From Fidelibacterota bacterium (lineage in GTDB: Bacteria; Fidelibacterota; Marinisomatia; Marinisomatales; SCKK01): a DNA stretch of 45,954 nt. Below the pieces are notes generated by a model. The model did not search any database and was not told the DNA's origin. It saw nothing but the letters and a program-made list of their open reading frames with translations. Position 1 is the stretch's first letter, and the number at the start of each line of letters is the position of its first letter. This document shows, piece by piece, positions 2,467 to 30,857 of this stretch. The position numbers were made by a program, and so were the translations under genes. The stretch is from the NCBI GenBank assembly GCA_004124475.1, contig SCKK01000028.1, positions 1-45,954 of the forward strand, read 5' to 3'.

Positions 2467-4284
2467 ATGGATTTAAAACTTTGTAGAATATCTATTCAAA
2501 ATTATAAAAGTATCAAATCAATAGATTTGACCGATTTGCCTAATTTGGTCGTATTTGTGGGAAGGAATGATGCGGGCAAATCGAATATTCTTGATTGCAT
2601 TAATTTTCTTTATCAAGCTGAAAGAAATTTAAATGAGGCACTTCAGTTACGTGGGGGCAGCTTTAAACATATTCTTCGTAATAGGAATGTCGCTAATGAA
2701 ATCAAAATAGAAATAGTATTTGAAGTTATAAAAGAAAAACGAACATATTTTATTCAACATTTGTTTAAAAAAAATCATACTTTGGGACCTGTTAATGTAC
2801 TTAAAAGTCCATTTCTTAAAAATATTACATACTCTTTACAAATCGACGATAAAAATTTTTCTGAAGAAATCTTAACAGAAGATGTTGTTAATGGTGATCA
2901 ATCAGTGTGTCTTATACGAGCTGAAGGTGATGCTGATGGAGGTCATTCCAAATTTACATCAAATCTTGAGGAGGTATGTGAAGTAACTATGTTAGGAGAT
3001 CCCTTGGAAGTGAGTCTTGATAAGACGGGAAGTGGCAGTGGAAGTCCCTCGCGCATTCTTTTTAATCGTTTGGGACAACCAACTCCTCCTACAATTTGGT
3101 ATCAACTTATGGATTTAGTGCGCGTTGAATTGATCAATTTCCTGTGGATTAGTCCAATCCGTAAAAGTATTTCAAAAGTTCGGATACAGAGTAGTGATCA
3201 ATTAGACTCTGAGTCGGCCAATTTAGTAGATGTAACCCATACCATAAATACACGTTATCCAGAAAAATTCAGAGAAATCGAAGGTGAGATACGGAAGTTG
3301 GTTCCCAGAATTGGAATGTTTTTAACCCCTACAACTGGGGGTGATGCAACTCTTGGTGTGCAAGATAATAATTTACCTCCTGATGAATATTACGAGTTAG
3401 ATCCGATTAGTTTTGGCACACGAACTGCTATTGCAATTATAACAGGTGTGATGCATGCAAAACCTGGAACGTGGATATGCATCGAGGAACCTGAAACAAA
3501 TCTCCATCCAAAAGCACAGGCTCAACTTTTTAACTTCCTTCAATTTCACGCTATAAATAAGCGGATTTTTGTCACCACGCACTCATCAGTATTTGCAAGT
3601 CTTGCTCCTGCTGATTCAGTCTTTCTAATTACCCGGGATAAGGATGATGGGACAGTTGCCGAACGTATTGAGGAATCAAATGTGGACGACGTGATTTTGG
3701 AATTGGGAATAAGAGCTTCCTATAATTTTGAAGCTGATGCAATTGTTTTCGTTGAAGGGCCTTTTGACTTACCAATATATAAAATATGGACTAACCGCTA
3801 TGGGTTTAATGACGATATCCAATTAATTGATTCTGGTTCGTGGAATAATATGTCGTATTACGCAAACGCAAAAATATTACAAAATAGGCGAATCAAGGTT
3901 CAAGTCTTTGTAATTTTTGATGGGGATACTGAATGTACTAAAAAGATTCGCAAACTCAAGAATCGGTTAATAGCAGAATTAAAGATACCTAAAGATCATA
4001 TATTAACATTAAACCAAAGTGAAGTAGAAGGGTATCTACTGGATTCGCGAGCAATTACTGATGCTTTTCCAGAAATACACCTTTCTCAAGAAGAACTTGA
4101 CAAACGTATTGGTCCATATCGAGGCAGGCGAAATCAAAAAGCTGTCCTCGATGAACTATTTAGGGAATTTGGAATAGGCCGATATGATGGGGAATTAGGT
4201 GCTCGGATTGTCCAGAAGATGGAAAAAATTCCTCCTCAGATTGAGAAATTCTTTTCTAAAATTAAATCTACAGTTGATGGCTAA
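2467..4284 (+). CDS. OLD-family ATP-dependent endonuclease (AAA ATPase + TOPRIM)
   Basis: The 605-residue protein starts with an SMC-like ABC ATPase: Walker A GRNDAGKS at residues 32-39, and Walker B WICIEEPETNLHP around 336-348 followed by the switch FVTTHSS. A C-terminal TOPRIM domain follows, with the acidic VFVEGPFDLPIY near 426 and VIFDGD near 481. This order and length match overcoming-lysogenization-defect (OLD) nucleases, many of which act in phage defence. No UvrD-like helicase (GajB) is adjacent, so it looks like a single-gene class 1 OLD, not Gabija. Nothing resembling an operon is near; the flanks are AT-rich and largely non-coding. A role in defence is inference from the family. 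Confidence 0.85.
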   Translation: MDLKLCRISIQNYKSIKSIDLTDLPNLVVFVGRNDAGKSNILDCINFLYQAERNLNEALQLRGGSFKHILRNRNVANEIKIEIVFEVIKEKRTYFIQHLFKKNHTLGPVNVLKSPFLKNITYSLQIDDKNFSEEILTEDVVNGDQSVCLIRAEGDADGGHSKFTSNLEEVCEVTMLGDPLEVSLDKTGSGSGSPSRILFNRLGQPTPPTIWYQLMDLVRVELINFLWISPIRKSISKVRIQSSDQLDSESANLVDVTHTINTRYPEKFREIEGEIRKLVPRIGMFLTPTTGGDATLGVQDNNLPPDEYYELDPISFGTRTAIAIITGVMHAKPGTWICIEEPETNLHPKAQAQLFNFLQFHAINKRIFVTTHSSVFASLAPADSVFLITRDKDDGTVAERIEESNVDDVILELGIRASYNFEADAIVFVEGPFDLPIYKIWTNRYGFNDDIQLIDSGSWNNMSYYANAKILQNRRIKVQVFVIFDGDTECTKKIRKLKNRLIAELKIPKDHILTLNQSEVEGYLLDSRAITDAFPEIHLSQEELDKRIGPYRGRRNQKAVLDELFREFGIGRYDGELGARIVQKMEKIPPQIEKFFSKIKSTVDG

Positions 4285-22795: not shown

Positions 22796-22838
22796 AATAT
22801 TGCCCCCTTTGTTGGAGGGGAGTTTAAGAGAACAGTCT

Positions 22839-22985
22839 ATGGAAAACAAGAAAAAAACCTCACCAAAATTCTCTCCGGTCCCTGACCTGGAGCTAATGGA
22901 TCAGGTACGTCAAGTGTTAAGGTATCATCATTACTCTTATCGAACAGAACAGGCTTACTGCGGCTGGATAGTAAGATTTATTTAG
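22839..22985 (+). pseudogene. Integron-type integrase fragment, copy 1
   Basis: The 48 readable codons hold the N-terminal SAM-like part of an integron integrase-type tyrosine recombinase: DLELMDQVRQVLRYHHYSYR, then TEQAYCGWIVRFI. A TAG stop follows where the family continues with xxHG (YHG is still readable after the stop). The catalytic domain is absent. The fragment is divergent from the minus-strand cassettes, as intI normally is. The same stop occurs at the same codon in copy 2 (27267-27413), so the lesion predates their duplication. Confidence 0.8.
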
Positions 22986-23045
22986 TACCACGGGAGCAAA
23001 ACTCAGCCAGTGTTCTTGTCCCTCTTTGAGAATATGTGTACAATC

Positions 23046-23210
23046 TTACTTCCTCCGTCTTTTTTTCTTGCCGTTGTGTGATATGTGGTCTTCTAACACA
23101 ATGTGGAGGTAGTCCGATAAGCTGCGTCGATCGGCTTCAGCAAGCGCTTCTAAGGATTTCTTGAGAGATGGGGATACACGAAGAGCGATAAATTCATCTT
23201 TGGTTTCCAT
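23046..23210 (-). CDS. Ribbon-helix-helix protein, copy 1
   Basis: The 54 residues run METKDEFIALRVSPSLKKSL, then EALAEADRRSLSDYLHIVLE, then a very basic tail GKKKRRRK. A beta-strand of alternating residues followed by two helices is the Arc/MetJ/CopG pattern, so this is a small DNA-binding protein, perhaps an antitoxin-like repressor. The ATG at 23210 is chosen over 23249 because a promoter -10 and operator lie just upstream of it (23217-23245). A near-identical copy is at 27705-27869. No toxin partner is adjacent in either copy. Confidence 0.75.
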   Translation of the reverse strand: METKDEFIALRVSPSLKKSLEALAEADRRSLSDYLHIVLEDHISHNGKKKRRRK

Positions 23211-23216
23211 GGTTGT

Positions 23217-23245
23217 ATTGTATAACGTTGTTAAACATTTTGCAA
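23217..23245 (-). promoter_or_regulatory. Promoter and palindromic operator of RHH copy 1
   Basis: On the minus strand there is a -35-like TTGCAA (23245-23240), a 17-nt spacer and -10 TACAAT (23222-23217). GTTTAACAACGTTATAC (23236-23220) overlaps spacer and -10, with arms GTTTAAC/GTATAAC. The site is conserved at 27876-27904. Confidence 0.6.
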
Positions 23246-23293
23246 GCACATTGTGGTGAGAGATGGAAAAGGTTTTTGGAACGATCCTTCCCG

Positions 23294-23313
23294 CCTGCCA
23301 TCAGCCGGGCAGG
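23294..23313. repeat. CCTGCC/GGCAGG palindrome
   Basis: CCTGCC and GGCAGG arms lie 8 nt apart. The related position at the end of the copy 2 block (27950-27975) has diverged. The 23246-23470 stretch otherwise holds no gene. Confidence 0.5.
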
Positions 23314-23470: not shown

Positions 23471-24214
23471 TCATAATAATGAAGGGTCTGCTAGACTAGA
23501 TTGTTTCACCGGTTTATCTAGGTTATATTTTTTTACAACGGCACCAACTAGGTCCATAAACCACTGAGGGGCTGTAGGAGATACAAGTATATTTTTAATG
23601 AGAATATTTAGATCGACAGGAATATATATACCGCTATCATGCGGTTTAATTGTCCAATCTATTTGACCTAATTTATTAATCGGTAATTGTTGTATAACTG
23701 CCCTTATTTCTTGCTCATGTGCAAAACTTTTTCTTTTATGAAAAAATGGAGCTATGAGGTCGCCTTCGGGCATTGAAAAGGACTCGAAATCAATATACTT
23801 TACATCATGTATATTCATTACGCCTTGTACTTCGTTCTTTCCAAGTTCTTTTATAAGAGAATCAAAGGTCGATTGGATTGCGATTCCTGCATCAGATTTA
23901 ATGTATAATTCCCACATCGCAGCAGATTCATACTCATTCCAATGCCAACAGTTTACAATAGTGTATTTTCTAATTTTTCTTAGAAAATCTAGAATTTTCT
24001 CTCCTCCTTTGACATAATCTTTAAAAGAAGCGGAGAGTCGTTCCAGGTTGGCTTTTGTCCAAGAACCTTCAAATTGATCTAGTAGCTTATCTGCTCTGGT
24101 AAAAAATAGTGCCTGTTTATCTAATAGCGATATAAATTTTGTAAAATCAAGATATCTCCATATCATAACCTTTTCATTCACCGTTTGTTGACTGCTCGAA
24201 ACTGATTTATTCAT
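23471..24214 (-). CDS. DUF2971 domain protein (cassette-like)
   Basis: The 247 residues show the DUF2971 pattern: WRYLDFTKFISLLDKQALFF, TRADKLLDQFEGSWTKAN, CWHWNEYESAAMWELYIKSD, GIAIQSTFDSL, then FFHKRKSFAHEQEIRAVI and the ILVSPTAPQWF region. The function is not established, though such genes are often found in accessory and defence regions. It begins 18 bp after a perfect GTTAGGT core (24239-24233) and is followed by a truncated attC half. Both fit an integron cassette on the minus strand. Its composition is AT-rich, unlike the upstream GC-richer secreted protein gene. Confidence 0.8.
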   Translation of the reverse strand: MNKSVSSSQQTVNEKVMIWRYLDFTKFISLLDKQALFFTRADKLLDQFEGSWTKANLERLSASFKDYVKGGEKILDFLRKIRKYTIVNCWHWNEYESAAMWELYIKSDAGIAIQSTFDSLIKELGKNEVQGVMNIHDVKYIDFESFSMPEGDLIAPFFHKRKSFAHEQEIRAVIQQLPINKLGQIDWTIKPHDSGIYIPVDLNILIKNILVSPTAPQWFMDLVGAVVKKYNLDKPVKQSSLADPSLL

Positions 24215-27108: not shown

Positions 27109-27165
27109 CGGGCAGGATAGACTGGAAATAATAACCATCTACTGATATATTGTGATCGGAATATG

Positions 27166-27185
27166 CCTGCCTGCCGGCAGGCAGG
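27166..27185. repeat. Perfect 20-bp GC-rich palindrome
   Basis: CCTGCCTGCCGGCAGGCAGG is its own reverse complement. It lies in the gap between the integrase fragment copy 2 and the secreted protein gene. Confidence 0.7.
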
Positions 27186-27266
27186 GAATAATAATTGGTG
27201 TTTGTCTATGTATAATTGCTTTAATATGGTTAGCATAGAATTTTAACATAATTAACGGGTAAGATT

Positions 27267-27413
27267 ATGAAATTACCATACAATTTTCAACCTAAATTTG
27301 TTCCTGACCCAGACCTGAAACTCATGGATCAGATACGTCAAGTATTAAGGTATCATCATTACGCTTATCGAACAGAACAAGCTTACCGTGGCTGGATAGT
27401 AAGATTTATTTAG
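27267..27413 (+). pseudogene. Integron-type integrase fragment, copy 2
   Basis: An ATG-started frame of 48 codons, MKLPYNFQPKFVPDPDLKLM then DQIRQVLRYHHYAYRTEQAY and RGWIVRFI, stops at TAG. The downstream residues YHG are still readable after the stop. The start differs from copy 1, but from PDLxLMDQ onward the two agree closely. The identical stop codon shows shared decay. It is divergent from the minus-strand genes. Confidence 0.8.
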
Positions 27414-27447
27414 TACCACGGGACCAAACTCAGTCAGTGTTCTTGAT

Positions 27448-27676
27448 TCAAATTCACCCTCATGATAATACCCCAGGGGCCTTAGCTTCTTGGATCGCCA
27501 GACTGTCAGCCGTGGATGACTTAGCCCCGAGGGAAACACGAAGCTCATCCTTATCCTCACCTGGATCTTTCAACACCCGTCGTTTGTGATGGACACTGCT
27601 AAGAGCTACGGATGTGTCAGCAAGAAAGCGGTGAGTTCCCCAATCCCCACGAGCGTACCACCAGACGCGCTTTTTG
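27448..27676 (-). other. 229-bp insertion between integrase fragment and RHH gene of copy 2
   Basis: Copy 1 joins '...AGTGTTCTTG' directly to 'TCCCTCTTTG'. Copy 2 has about 229 extra bases there. On the minus strand the extra bases are open for about 66 codons (WWYARGDWGTHRFLADTSVA through DELRVSLGAKSSTAD to a stop at 27460) without an ATG. It may be a gene fragment carried in, or copy 1 may have lost it. The family is not recognised. Confidence 0.5.
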
Positions 27677-27704
27677 TCCCTCTTTGTGAATATGTGGGCA
27701 AATC

Positions 27705-27869
27705 TTACTTCTTCCGTCTTTTTTTCTTGCCCTTGTGTGATATGTGGTCTTCTAACACAATGCGGAGGTAGTCCGATAAGATGCGGCGATCGGCTTCAGT
27801 AAGCACTTCTAAGGATTTCTTGAGAGATGGGGATACACGAAGAGTGATAAATTCATCTTTGGTTTCCAT
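27705..27869 (-). CDS. Ribbon-helix-helix protein, copy 2
   Basis: The 54 residues begin METKDEFITLRVSPSLKKSL and end GKKKRRKK, differing from copy 1 at only a few positions. Reading frame, length and upstream operator are all conserved, unlike the neighbouring integrase fragments. This suggests the gene stayed under selection after duplication. It sits between the GNAT cassette's attC and the integrase fragment. It could regulate itself, or formerly the integrase; no toxin gene is next to it. Confidence 0.75.
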   Translation of the reverse strand: METKDEFITLRVSPSLKKSLEVLTEADRRILSDYLRIVLEDHISHKGKKKRRKK

Positions 27870-27875
27870 GGTTGT

Positions 27876-27904
27876 ATTGTATAACGTTGTTAAACATTAC
27901 GCAA
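27876..27904 (-). promoter_or_regulatory. Promoter and palindromic operator of RHH copy 2
   Basis: On the minus strand there is TTGCGT (27904-27899), a 17-nt spacer and TACAAT (27881-27876). The operator-like GTTTAACAACGTTATAC is at 27895-27879 and identical to copy 1. Confidence 0.6.
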
Positions 27905-27987
27905 GCACCTTGTGGTGAGAGATGGAAAAGGTTTTTCGGAACTATCCTTCTTGCCTGCCATCATTCGGACAGGTGGAAAAGTTAAGT

Positions 27988-28071
27988 GATTAACGGCGAA
28001 AATAAGCTACCTGGGACTGAGCGCGGCAAAGCCGCGCAGAGAACCAACTAAGCTTCATTCTCTTGTTATCT
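27988..28071 (-). other. attC site of the GNAT cassette
   Basis: On the minus strand: core AGATAAC (28071-28065), spacer AAGAG, 2L AATGAAGCT, a central hairpin GCGCGGC-TTT-GCCGCGC, 2R AGCTTATT, a short spacer, and core GTTAATC (27994-27988). 2L pairs with 2R except for one extra G in 2L, the diagnostic unpaired base. The GNAT stop codon lies inside the site, as is common for integron cassettes. Confidence 0.85.
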
Positions 28072-28486
28072 GCCCATTTGCTTTTGAATGCTCACGGTTG
28101 CGTATAATCATCCCGATCTTGCTTGAAAACCCAAGTTGCTGATAAAAGCCCTTTAGAGTTTCATCGCATTGTAGATCAATCGCGTACATGCTTGAAAGAC
28201 TATCGATCATACGTTTGACGAGTTCTCGACCAATACCTTTCCCTCGATACGCGGGTAGGACTTCCAAGAGAGGAATGTACGCATAGAAGACACCATCCGA
28301 AATGGCGTTGATTCGGCCAACGCATTGCTGACCATCCATGGCCAGCCATACCTTGTAGCTGCCGGCAAGGATGCGAAGATGCGCCTCGGCATCAGGATAC
28401 GTTAGCCAGTCGACGAAGAAACCTTGTAATTGGTCGGCAGTGAAGCCTTCGAGATTATCCGTATAGCTTACATCCATCTTCTTCAC
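28055..28486 (-). CDS. GNAT-family N-acetyltransferase cassette
   Basis: The 143 residues carry the GNAT acetyl-CoA motif PAYRGKGIGRELVKRM near residues 80-95 with R-x-x-G-x-G, preceded by YAYIPLLEVLP, and end with a FYQQLGFS strand typical of motif B. The substrate is unknown. The first codon is GTG at 28486, only 2 nt after the attC core of the preceding cassette; ATG at 28477 is the alternative. No ribosome site precedes it. Its end overlaps its own attC by 17 bp. It is flanked on both sides by good attC sites, so this is the clearest single cassette in the window. Confidence 0.87.
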   Translation of the reverse strand: MKKMDVSYTDNLEGFTADQLQGFFVDWLTYPDAEAHLRILAGSYKVWLAMDGQQCVGRINAISDGVFYAYIPLLEVLPAYRGKGIGRELVKRMIDSLSSMYAIDLQCDETLKGFYQQLGFSSKIGMIIRNREHSKANGQITRE

Positions 28487-28488
28487 GC

Positions 28489-28559
28489 AGATAACGCTGA
28501 GGTTAACCGTTTTTTTTGGAGCACAGCGGAAAAAAATCCGGTTGAACCGTTTGTTAGGT
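28489..28559 (-). other. attC site of the HEPN-motif cassette
   Basis: On the minus strand: perfect core ACCTAAC (28559-28553), spacer AAACG, 2L GGTTCAACCG, T-tract, loop, A-tract, 2R CGGTTAACC, spacer TCAGC and core GTTATCT (28495-28489). 2L pairs with 2R apart from one extra C in 2L. The T- and A-tracts extend the stem. The upstream gene's TAA lies inside the first core. Confidence 0.9.
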
Positions 28560-29216
28560 CTTTAGTAGATTTTTTTCAATATCTAACAGAAGATAAATGG
28601 CGTCCCCTGGCCCTAAAAATCCACGCTTCTGGTTATCCCAAAAAAGAAGTGTTCCATGAAGGGATTTGTCGATTTTTAATGAGCGCCATTGAGCGAGCCT
28701 TCGAGGTTCATTTCTCATCAAATTAAAGTGACCTTTATGTGCAGCGGCATTCCTACAATGGCGTAGAAATTCCCAAAGTGGCTCGTGATTATGATCAGCA
28801 CCTGTTAACTCCCAAGCCATTATTAATAAGGCTCCCGCTGACAAACTACCAAAAAAGTTCATGGAAACTTTAGGATCTGAAATAATAGCACTTGCAAGAA
28901 GTGATGTATTTACTTTTGGCCCTTTATCAAAAACACTGCCAAGCCTTTGGACACCTACAATTGGAGACGATTTAGACTGCAAAACGGCTTGGACATGCTC
29001 CTTATAACCATCATTAATCCCTTCACAGAACTCTTTAATTTTCTCATTAGCTTCTTCAACATCCTGCTGAAGGTTACTTTCTGCTTTAATGAATAGATTT
29101 CGCATTCCCCTAGCAGATAGATCCAATAGACCGTGTACTTGAGCAGCATATGCTACAACAATTGAATAAAATGGTTTCTTTGTATCAAATTCTATATGAG
29201 GTTCAATAAAATTCAT
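28554..29216 (-). CDS. HEPN-motif hypothetical protein (first cassette of unit I)
   Basis: The 220 residues are mostly helical. The only recognisable signature is FLRHCRNAAAHKGHF, with R155-x4-H160, the R-x4-6-H catalytic pattern of HEPN RNases, in a helix preceded by the acidic EPLWEF. HEPN proteins act as toxins or phage-defence nucleases, but the motif alone does not prove it. The ATG follows a perfect GTTAGGT core by 10 nt. The stop codon is inside its attC, so the gene fills its cassette exactly. No antitoxin is visible in the cassette. Confidence 0.7.
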   Translation of the reverse strand: MNFIEPHIEFDTKKPFYSIVVAYAAQVHGLLDLSARGMRNLFIKAESNLQQDVEEANEKIKEFCEGINDGYKEHVQAVLQSKSSPIVGVQRLGSVFDKGPKVNTSLLASAIISDPKVSMNFFGSLSAGALLIMAWELTGADHNHEPLWEFLRHCRNAAAHKGHFNLMRNEPRRLAQWRSLKIDKSLHGTLLFWDNQKRGFLGPGDAIYLLLDIEKNLLKT

Positions 29217-29226
29217 TATTATTTTG

Positions 29227-29233
29227 ACCTAAC
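29227..29233 (-). other. Cassette insertion core (attI- or attC-like)
   Basis: On the minus strand GTTAGGT matches GTTRRRY perfectly and sits 10 nt before the first cassette gene of unit I. Upstream is a small TGGAAA/TTTCCA hairpin but no full attC. The integrase fragment copy 3 starts about 220 bp away on the other strand, so this may be the attI point. The intervening bases hold only GC-rich repeat patches. Confidence 0.5.
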
Positions 29234-29450
29234 TCGTCAATCAATGGAAAAGTTTCCACGATATAACCCTTCCCGCCCTGTCTGACTGTATATGCGTGGG
29301 CAGGCTGACTGGACGTTAGTTTGGGCAGGATAGCTTGGAAATTATTCCGCATATTCTTATCCATCACTTAAAAAAGCGGAAAATATCCTGTATGTCATCC
29401 ACATATTGAAACAACCTTTTTGTTACAGGGGAGTTTAAGAGAACAGCCTA

Positions 29451-29697
29451 TTGAAAACAAGAACTAAACCTCACCCCTGCCCGTCCGGCAGGCGGGAAAA
29501 TTCTCCCTAAACCCCGACCTGTGGTGAAATATGATCATATTCCGGTCGTGATGACACAAGATGAAGTGAAGTCGGTTTTCAACCCGATGCACGGGTATCA
29601 TTTGATCATGGCGAAGCTGCTGTACGGAGGTGGTCTTCGGTTGATGGAGTGTATGCGGTTACGGGTTTACGCCAAACTTAGGTTTGTTTCTCCATAG
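29451..29697 (+). pseudogene. Integron-type integrase fragment, copy 3 (catalytic part)
   Basis: The first about 35 bases match copy 1 (the stretch from GGGGAGTTTAAGAGAACAG onward), including a TTG where copy 1 has ATG. A CCTGCC/GGCAGG palindrome interrupts at 29476-29492. After an internal deletion the sequence encodes part of the catalytic domain, VVKYDHIPVVMTQDEVKSVF through HLIMAKLLYGGGLRLMECMR then LRVYAKL and a stop. LLYGxGLRLMExxRLR is the first catalytic-arginine box of integron integrases. This fragment shows what family the other two pieces belong to. Confidence 0.82.
29476..29492. repeat. CCTGCC/GGCAGG palindrome inside integrase fragment
   Basis: Arms CCTGCC (29476-29481) and GGCAGG (29487-29492). 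Copy 1 of the same sequence lacks it, so it is an insertion. Confidence 0.6.
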
Positions 29698-29760
29698 GTG
29701 ACATTGTAAATTCGTCCCTATTAACAGTAGCTTCTCCAAAGGATCCTGTGGAAAGACATA

Positions 29761-30321
29761 ATGGCGACGACAGCAGATATCAGAAACGGGTTGGTGATCG
29801 AGTATAAAGGTCACCGGTTGAAAATCATAAAATTCCTTCATGTCAAACCTGGGAAGGGGGGGGCATTCGTTCGAACCAAACTCAAGAATATCGTGACGGG
29901 TCAGGTAATTGACGTGACATTTCGAGGGGGTCAAAAGATAATTCCTGTCAGAGTGGACACAAACGAAATGCAATACCTGTATTCCGATAGCGATTCTGCT
30001 ATATTTATGAACAATGAGACTTTTGATCAGGTATCTATTCCCCTGGATAATGTTACAGATGAGAGCAATCTTCTAAAAGAGGGGATGAATGTAGAAGTAT
30101 CCTTTGTGGGGGAGGAAGTCATTGGGATTAAACTTCCTGTATTTGTTGAATTGGAAGTCAAAAAGACCGATCCCGGTGTAAAAGGAAATACAGCCGCAGG
30201 GGGTTCAAAACCAGCAGTTCTTGAGACCGGATACACTCTTTCCGTACCCCTATTTATCAATGTGGGAGATAAATTGAAAATTGACACAAGAACGGGGAAA
30301 TACTCCGAACGTGTGAGGTAA
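29761..30321 (+). CDS. efp: Elongation factor P
   Basis: The 186 residues are the full family length with three domains. An N-terminal KOW-like domain carries the conserved loop [11 protein letters not shown]32 is the usual modification site, and no epmA/epmB is in the window. Two OB-fold domains follow, ending [17 protein letters not shown], a diagnostic EF-P end. It relieves ribosome stalling at polyproline stretches. GGAAAG precedes the ATG. It forms an operon with accB, whose ATG follows its stop after 1 nt, an arrangement seen in several bacteria. Confidence 0.97.
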
Positions 30322-30322
30322 T

Positions 30323-30781
30323 ATGTGGCAGGATAAACTAAAAGAGATCATAAAGATATTAGAAGAAAGTAACGTCAACGAGATCGAGGTAAATTTCTGG
30401 GGGCGAAAATTTCGTGTGTCTAAAAATCCGGGAATTGTAGGAAATCCAACTCATGTTGACTCGTCCATCCCGGTGGAAGTGAAATCCCCTGTTCCCGGAC
30501 AAGGCGTCGAAGTCGTTTCTGCCACTACGCCGGAAGATGGTATGATTGAAGTTACAGCGCCTATGGTGGGCACTTTCTACAGCGCCTCTTCTCCGGAAAC
30601 CTCTCCATTTGTGAAGGTTGGAGATCAAGTGACTGTGGGACAGCCGCTCTGTATCATTGAGGCAATGAAAATCATGAACGAAATTGAGGCTGAAGTTGCG
30701 GGTGAAATCATGAAAATATTAACAGAAGATTCCCAACCTGTGGAATATGGTCAGCCTCTGTTTCTTGTTAAACCTGTCTGA
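30323..30781 (+). CDS. accB: Acetyl-CoA carboxylase biotin carboxyl carrier protein
   Basis: The 152 residues are a short N-terminal domain, a Pro/Val-rich linker (about 45-75) and the biotinyl domain with the biotin lysine in [12 protein letters not shown]. The [20 protein letters not shown] stretch contains the 'thumb' typical of bacterial BCCP. It carries carboxybiotin from AccC to the carboxyltransferase. It follows efp directly and precedes accC by 76 bp, so the three are likely co-transcribed. Confidence 0.96.
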
Positions 30782-30857
30782 ATTTTTACCAATTTTCATT
30801 CCAGCACTTTAGTTACGAGTAATTTCACCAATTTGACTAAAAGTTCATTATCACTCT

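Follow-up and report, generated by a model that had tools for sequence, protein, structure and literature searches.

The window, a stretch of 45,954 nucleotides from a 3.15-Mb Candidatus Neomarinimicrobiota metagenome-assembled genome (MAG), carries on its minus strand two genes that read as successive integron cassettes and that adjoin an attI leader and the remains of an integron integrase gene (intI). Cassette 1 (28494–29232, minus strand, give or take one or two bases at either end; bounded by G/TT at the attI junction and by the G/TT in its own attC) holds an orphan gene of 220 codons (28554–29216, minus strand), whose TAA stop codon lies, as the original prediction had it, within the R'' core box of the attC that follows it (attC1, 28489–28559, minus strand). 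Cassette 2 holds a gene for a GNAT-family acetyltransferase of 143 amino acids (28055–28486, minus strand), and inside the end of this gene begins a probable second site, attC2 (27988–28071, minus strand).

The 220-residue protein has no convincing homologue in plasmids, phages, viral contigs, the PDB, Pfam, PHROGs, NCBIfam, PADLOC or 199 genomes of the phylum, orphan status being usual for cassette genes, and its single-sequence structure prediction was uninformative (pLDDT 39). One segment, WEFLRHCRNAAAHKGHF, is similar to the RX4-6H motif found in HEPN proteins, which serves as a lead only. A homologue of the GNAT gene in another genome (G024, 42%) was considered as a cassette gene elsewhere and rejected, as there is no attC beside it.

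The attI junction and the integrase relics

Upstream of cassette 1 lies a leader (29234–29448, plus strand) homologous to those of intact integrons on three other contigs of the host (C57, C71 and C54). Positions 29227–29486 align with these leaders and with that of an intact intI on contig C32 of a congeneric genome, G001, and all of the alignments end at the TAAC of ACCTAAC (29227–29233; GTTAGGT on the minus strand), past which the DNA differs from locus to locus. Because the homology ends so sharply at GTTAGGT, we take this to be the attI crossover point, with exchange between G and TT; a crossover of the form G/TTRRRY thus stands beside intI, as in an integron platform. The intI relic itself (29449–29667, plus strand) is positioned and oriented as is canonical for a divergent intI, has a frameshifted start and an internal deletion, and ends near position 140 of the IntI profile. 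A second relic (27250–27430, plus strand) comprises the N-terminal part with a TAG stop after about 45 residues, and a third (22838–23018, plus strand) shares this TAG and is 88% identical to the second. Profile searches with TIGR02249 returned only fragments in the window (29533–29667, 27321–27428 and 22893–23000) and no functional intI over the cut-off, so that the locus is not a complete integron and is classed as a degraded integron or putative CALIN.

Several further features accompany these remains. The leader carries an insertion of roughly 58 bp (at about 29272–29329), as does the leader on contig C16, and the insertion resembles GC-rich palindromic repeats interspersed elsewhere in the window (27165–27190, 29485–29503). 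An intI N-terminal relic paired with a small ribbon-helix-helix-like ORF on the opposite strand occurs in two copies (22862–23313 and 27290–27973, 88–92% identical); this unit recurs in the sister genome (L098:55-356) and partly adjoins an attI-like leader. A gene at 23471–24214 (minus strand) matches PDC-S31, a candidate defence family in PADLOC (E 2.5e-19), has GTTAGGT just upstream, and is followed by a sequence resembling the 5' half of an attC, possibly a decayed one (23433–23390, minus strand; a weak covariance match of 10.5 bits, E 3.2), so arranged that the gene is probably a third, decayed cassette. The segment 24234–24344, which starts from the GTTAGGT boundary upstream of this gene, has two further copies on contig C3 (87–91%). 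A possible defence gene at 2467–4284 (plus strand) encodes an AAA ATPase of the OLD/GajA/HEC-01A type, whose best PADLOC match has E 7.5e-36.

Architecture and scoring of attC1

Read on the minus strand, where the coordinates and architecture originally proposed hold, attC1 consists of ACCTAAC AAACG GTTCAACCG GATTTTTTTCCGCTGTGCTCCAAAAAAAA CGGTTAAC CTCAGC GTTATCT, that is, R''-spacer-L''-loop-L'-spacer-R'. The R'' box (28559–28553) matches RYYYAAC perfectly, as had been claimed. It is followed by the 5-nt spacer AAACG and the 9-nt L'' arm GTTCAACCG, GTT(C)AACCG, which pairs with the 8-nt L' arm CGGTTAAC. The L stem had been described as 9 bp long; it is instead 8 bp with one extra C, which does lie in the 5' arm only. 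Spacers of 5 nt had likewise been described, and this stands for the 5' spacer; the 3' spacer CTCAGC is 6 nt long up to GTT and comes to 5 nt only if the core is written CGTTATC. Within the 29-nt loop the predicted T/A-tract extension is present, T7 and A8 lengthening the stem past a small GA/A internal loop. The R' box (GTTATCT, 28495–28489) has the GTT and fits GTTRRRY at two of the four further positions, deviating at the other two. With these deviations the core boxes of an attC (RYYYAAC...GTTRRRY) are in place, and so are the paired L arms, with the extrahelical base on the 5' side, and the unpaired spacers.

To see how often such a structure arises by chance we scored a grammar (AAC, a spacer of 4–7, L arms of 9 and 8 nt with one extra base, a spacer of 4–7, GTT) against 300 dinucleotide-shuffled windows on both strands. 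The score of attC1 (12.5) was equalled or exceeded four times in the 300 shuffles, an expectation of 0.013 per shuffled window. We also built a covariance model from 22 attC sites, nine of them class 1 integron sites from plasmids and the rest from integron arrays of the host genome and other bacteria, with the window's own sites left out. The top match in the window was attC1 (21.6 bits, E 0.011, model positions 4–49), and in the whole 3.15-Mb genome the full model gave it 30.4 bits (E 0.0088). These values, well above background and significant for a model built in this analysis, bear out the earlier view that the combination is not expected by chance. The score is mid-range, 30 bits compared with 39–55 for many class 1 sites (24–55 bits for the class as a whole under the same model, many of these having been training sites). 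No family in Rfam matched at the gathering score.

The predicted fold bulges the extra base out on both strands, and its energy is only modestly better than that of shuffled sequences (z –1.96 for the minus strand; z –0.92 for the plus strand, over a slightly longer stretch). Single-strand folding energy thus backs the architecture of attC1 without proving that it is an attC, and is not decisive.

Cassette boundaries and the identity of the site

Each cassette brings with it a 5' TTRRRY and, close to its 3' end, an R'', and these two face each other when the cassette is a free circle. In both cassettes of the window the first bases and the R'' are complementary at every one of the four variable positions: cassette 1 begins TTAGGT and has the R'' ACCTAAC, and cassette 2 begins TTATCT and has the R'' AGATAAC. 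In reference arrays seven of nine cassettes follow this complementarity fully and the other two are off by one base, and mispaired combinations of 5' ends and R'' boxes reach 4/4 in only 4.5%. The same rule accounts for the R' of attC1, which reads GTTATCT rather than GTTRRRY because the bases that deviate are already part of cassette 2.

The second site has the R'' AGATAAC, an L'' arm AAT(G)AAGCT, a GC hairpin, the L' arm AGCTTATT and the R' GTTAATC. Its fold is better than that of any shuffled sequence (z –2.98, none equally good), and the covariance model missed it in the window search. From its grammar score, its position at the end of a gene, its fold and the cassette-end rule, we regard attC2 as a probable attC-like site. 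None of this, from attC2 and the boundary at attI to the relics of intI and the many integrons of the host genome, figured in the original prediction.

If the site bounds a mobile cassette then related genomes should vary around it. In the single congeneric genome compared, G001, the efp region (29700–30800) is 94% identical and has the same truncated intI relic beside it, and the left flank is shared up to 19697 (93.8%). Neither cassette gene turned up in a search of that genome, whose contigs break at the island, a stretch flanked by efp on one side and a CehA-like gene on the other. The case that would have spoken against an attC, the same bases in relatives with no cassette variation around them, is thus not what is seen: G001 keeps the flanks and has neither cassette gene.

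Together, the attI junction, the cassette boundaries and the relic intI are the decisive sequence evidence, and we conclude with a probability of about 95% that 28489–28559 is a bona fide attC, belonging to cassette 1 of a chromosomal integron that has two cassettes and a destroyed intI. The element is of a known kind, integrons being well known, and the notable part is that the host genome holds unusually many of them.

In integrons the bottom strand of the attC forms a hairpin on which the integrase is guided by the bulged base and the unpaired spacers, and the cassette moves when strands are exchanged between G and TT. The bottom strand of attC1, which is the plus strand of the window, would when single-stranded fold in this way, its extra base protruding from the stem, and an integron integrase would exchange strands at the G/TT of the R box, so that the cassette integrates at attI or is excised. 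The integrase of this locus being dead, the two cassettes have either lost their mobility or can move only through an intact integrase encoded elsewhere in the cell; we infer that attC1 may still recombine, with an integrase acting on it in trans.

The reading that competes best accepts the site as a true attC and holds that it is an inert fossil, which has lost recombination through changes such as its AT-rich stem. All of the neighbouring intI copies are dead, a half-site-like sequence lies nearby and the covariance score is mid-range, as such a fossil would have it. However, the R and L boxes, the spacers and the extra base of attC1 are all intact and the complementarity of R'' with the cassette end is still perfect, so that no decay is visible, and we consider an inert site unlikely, although by no means negligibly so. 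Far less room is left for a chance inverted repeat or a rho-independent terminator that resembles an attC by accident: the T/A tract, the position at the end of the 220-codon gene and the modest fold z-score would suit a terminator, but neither the covariance score, nor the homology to attI exact to the crossover, nor the adjoining intI relic, nor the complementarity of R'' and 5' end in two successive cassettes would be expected of one, and given the junction evidence this explanation is very unlikely. Insertion of the cassette at a secondary, non-integron site, for which the broken local integrase and the mere two cassettes left might speak, is equally improbable, as cassette 1 is joined on its upstream side to a recognisable attI, whose leader is conserved and which has intI remains adjoining it.

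Integron load of the host genome and comparison with known systems

Reading the host genome as stretches around integrase and attC matches, we found four intact IntI (contigs C57, C54, C71 and C50), two frameshifted ones (C65 and C13) and several fragments. The intact integrases of C57, C54 and C71 share 80–87% identity with one another, that of C50 is 44–46% identical to these three, and the frameshifted copies represent further lineages, giving about four lineages with identities of 39–58% between them and 80–87% within one. By integrase the closest named relative is a Candidatus Neomarinimicrobiota MAG (95% identity), and nine of 41 related genomes have an integrase over the curated cut-off. 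The covariance model returned 20 attC matches at E ≤ 1 in the host, spread over more than ten contigs. More than one IntI occurs in 22% of IntI-bearing genomes, and up to four complete integrons are on record in a K. pneumoniae genome (PMC9024848), which makes the load of the host high rather than unheard of. In the open-access literature we found no report of integrons in Neomarinimicrobiota, which is weak evidence that there is none.

These observations firmly establish that a marine phylum which has been little studied carries integrons with cassettes, and attC1 shows plainly that a true attC can look imperfect when bases of its R' are owned by a cassette. Since dead integrons and several intact integrases occur together in the host genome, one can test whether orphan cassettes are mobilised in trans. 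More tentatively, the genus might be an integron hub in which intact integrases act in trans to keep the cassettes left behind by dead integrons mobile, a suggestion that we rate at somewhat less than even odds.

Compared with the aadA-type attC of class 1 cassettes (e.g. L103:6843-6902), attC1 shares the RYYYAAC box and 5-nt spacer, a GTTCAA-type L'' with one extra C and a complementary L', a 6-nt spacer followed by GTT, and a length of about 60–70 nt. The two differ in the stem, which is a T/A tract in attC1 and GC-rich in the class 1 site, and in R', where attC1 has GTTATCT owing to the start of its downstream cassette. At the level of the locus, the window resembles sedentary chromosomal integrons and CALINs as described with IntegronFinder (PMC9024848) in several respects: consecutive attC sites share a strand, most genes are orphans, and attI and intI stand at one end. 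For a CALIN, at least two attC must lie close together on one strand with no intact intI; of the two sites here attC1 is clear, and attC2 is backed by its structure and the boundary rule and missed by the covariance model. In contrast to the sedentary integrons it retains only two cassettes and its intI is a relic, which places it with the degraded integrons or, putatively, the CALINs, and unlike those described it belongs to the phylum Neomarinimicrobiota.
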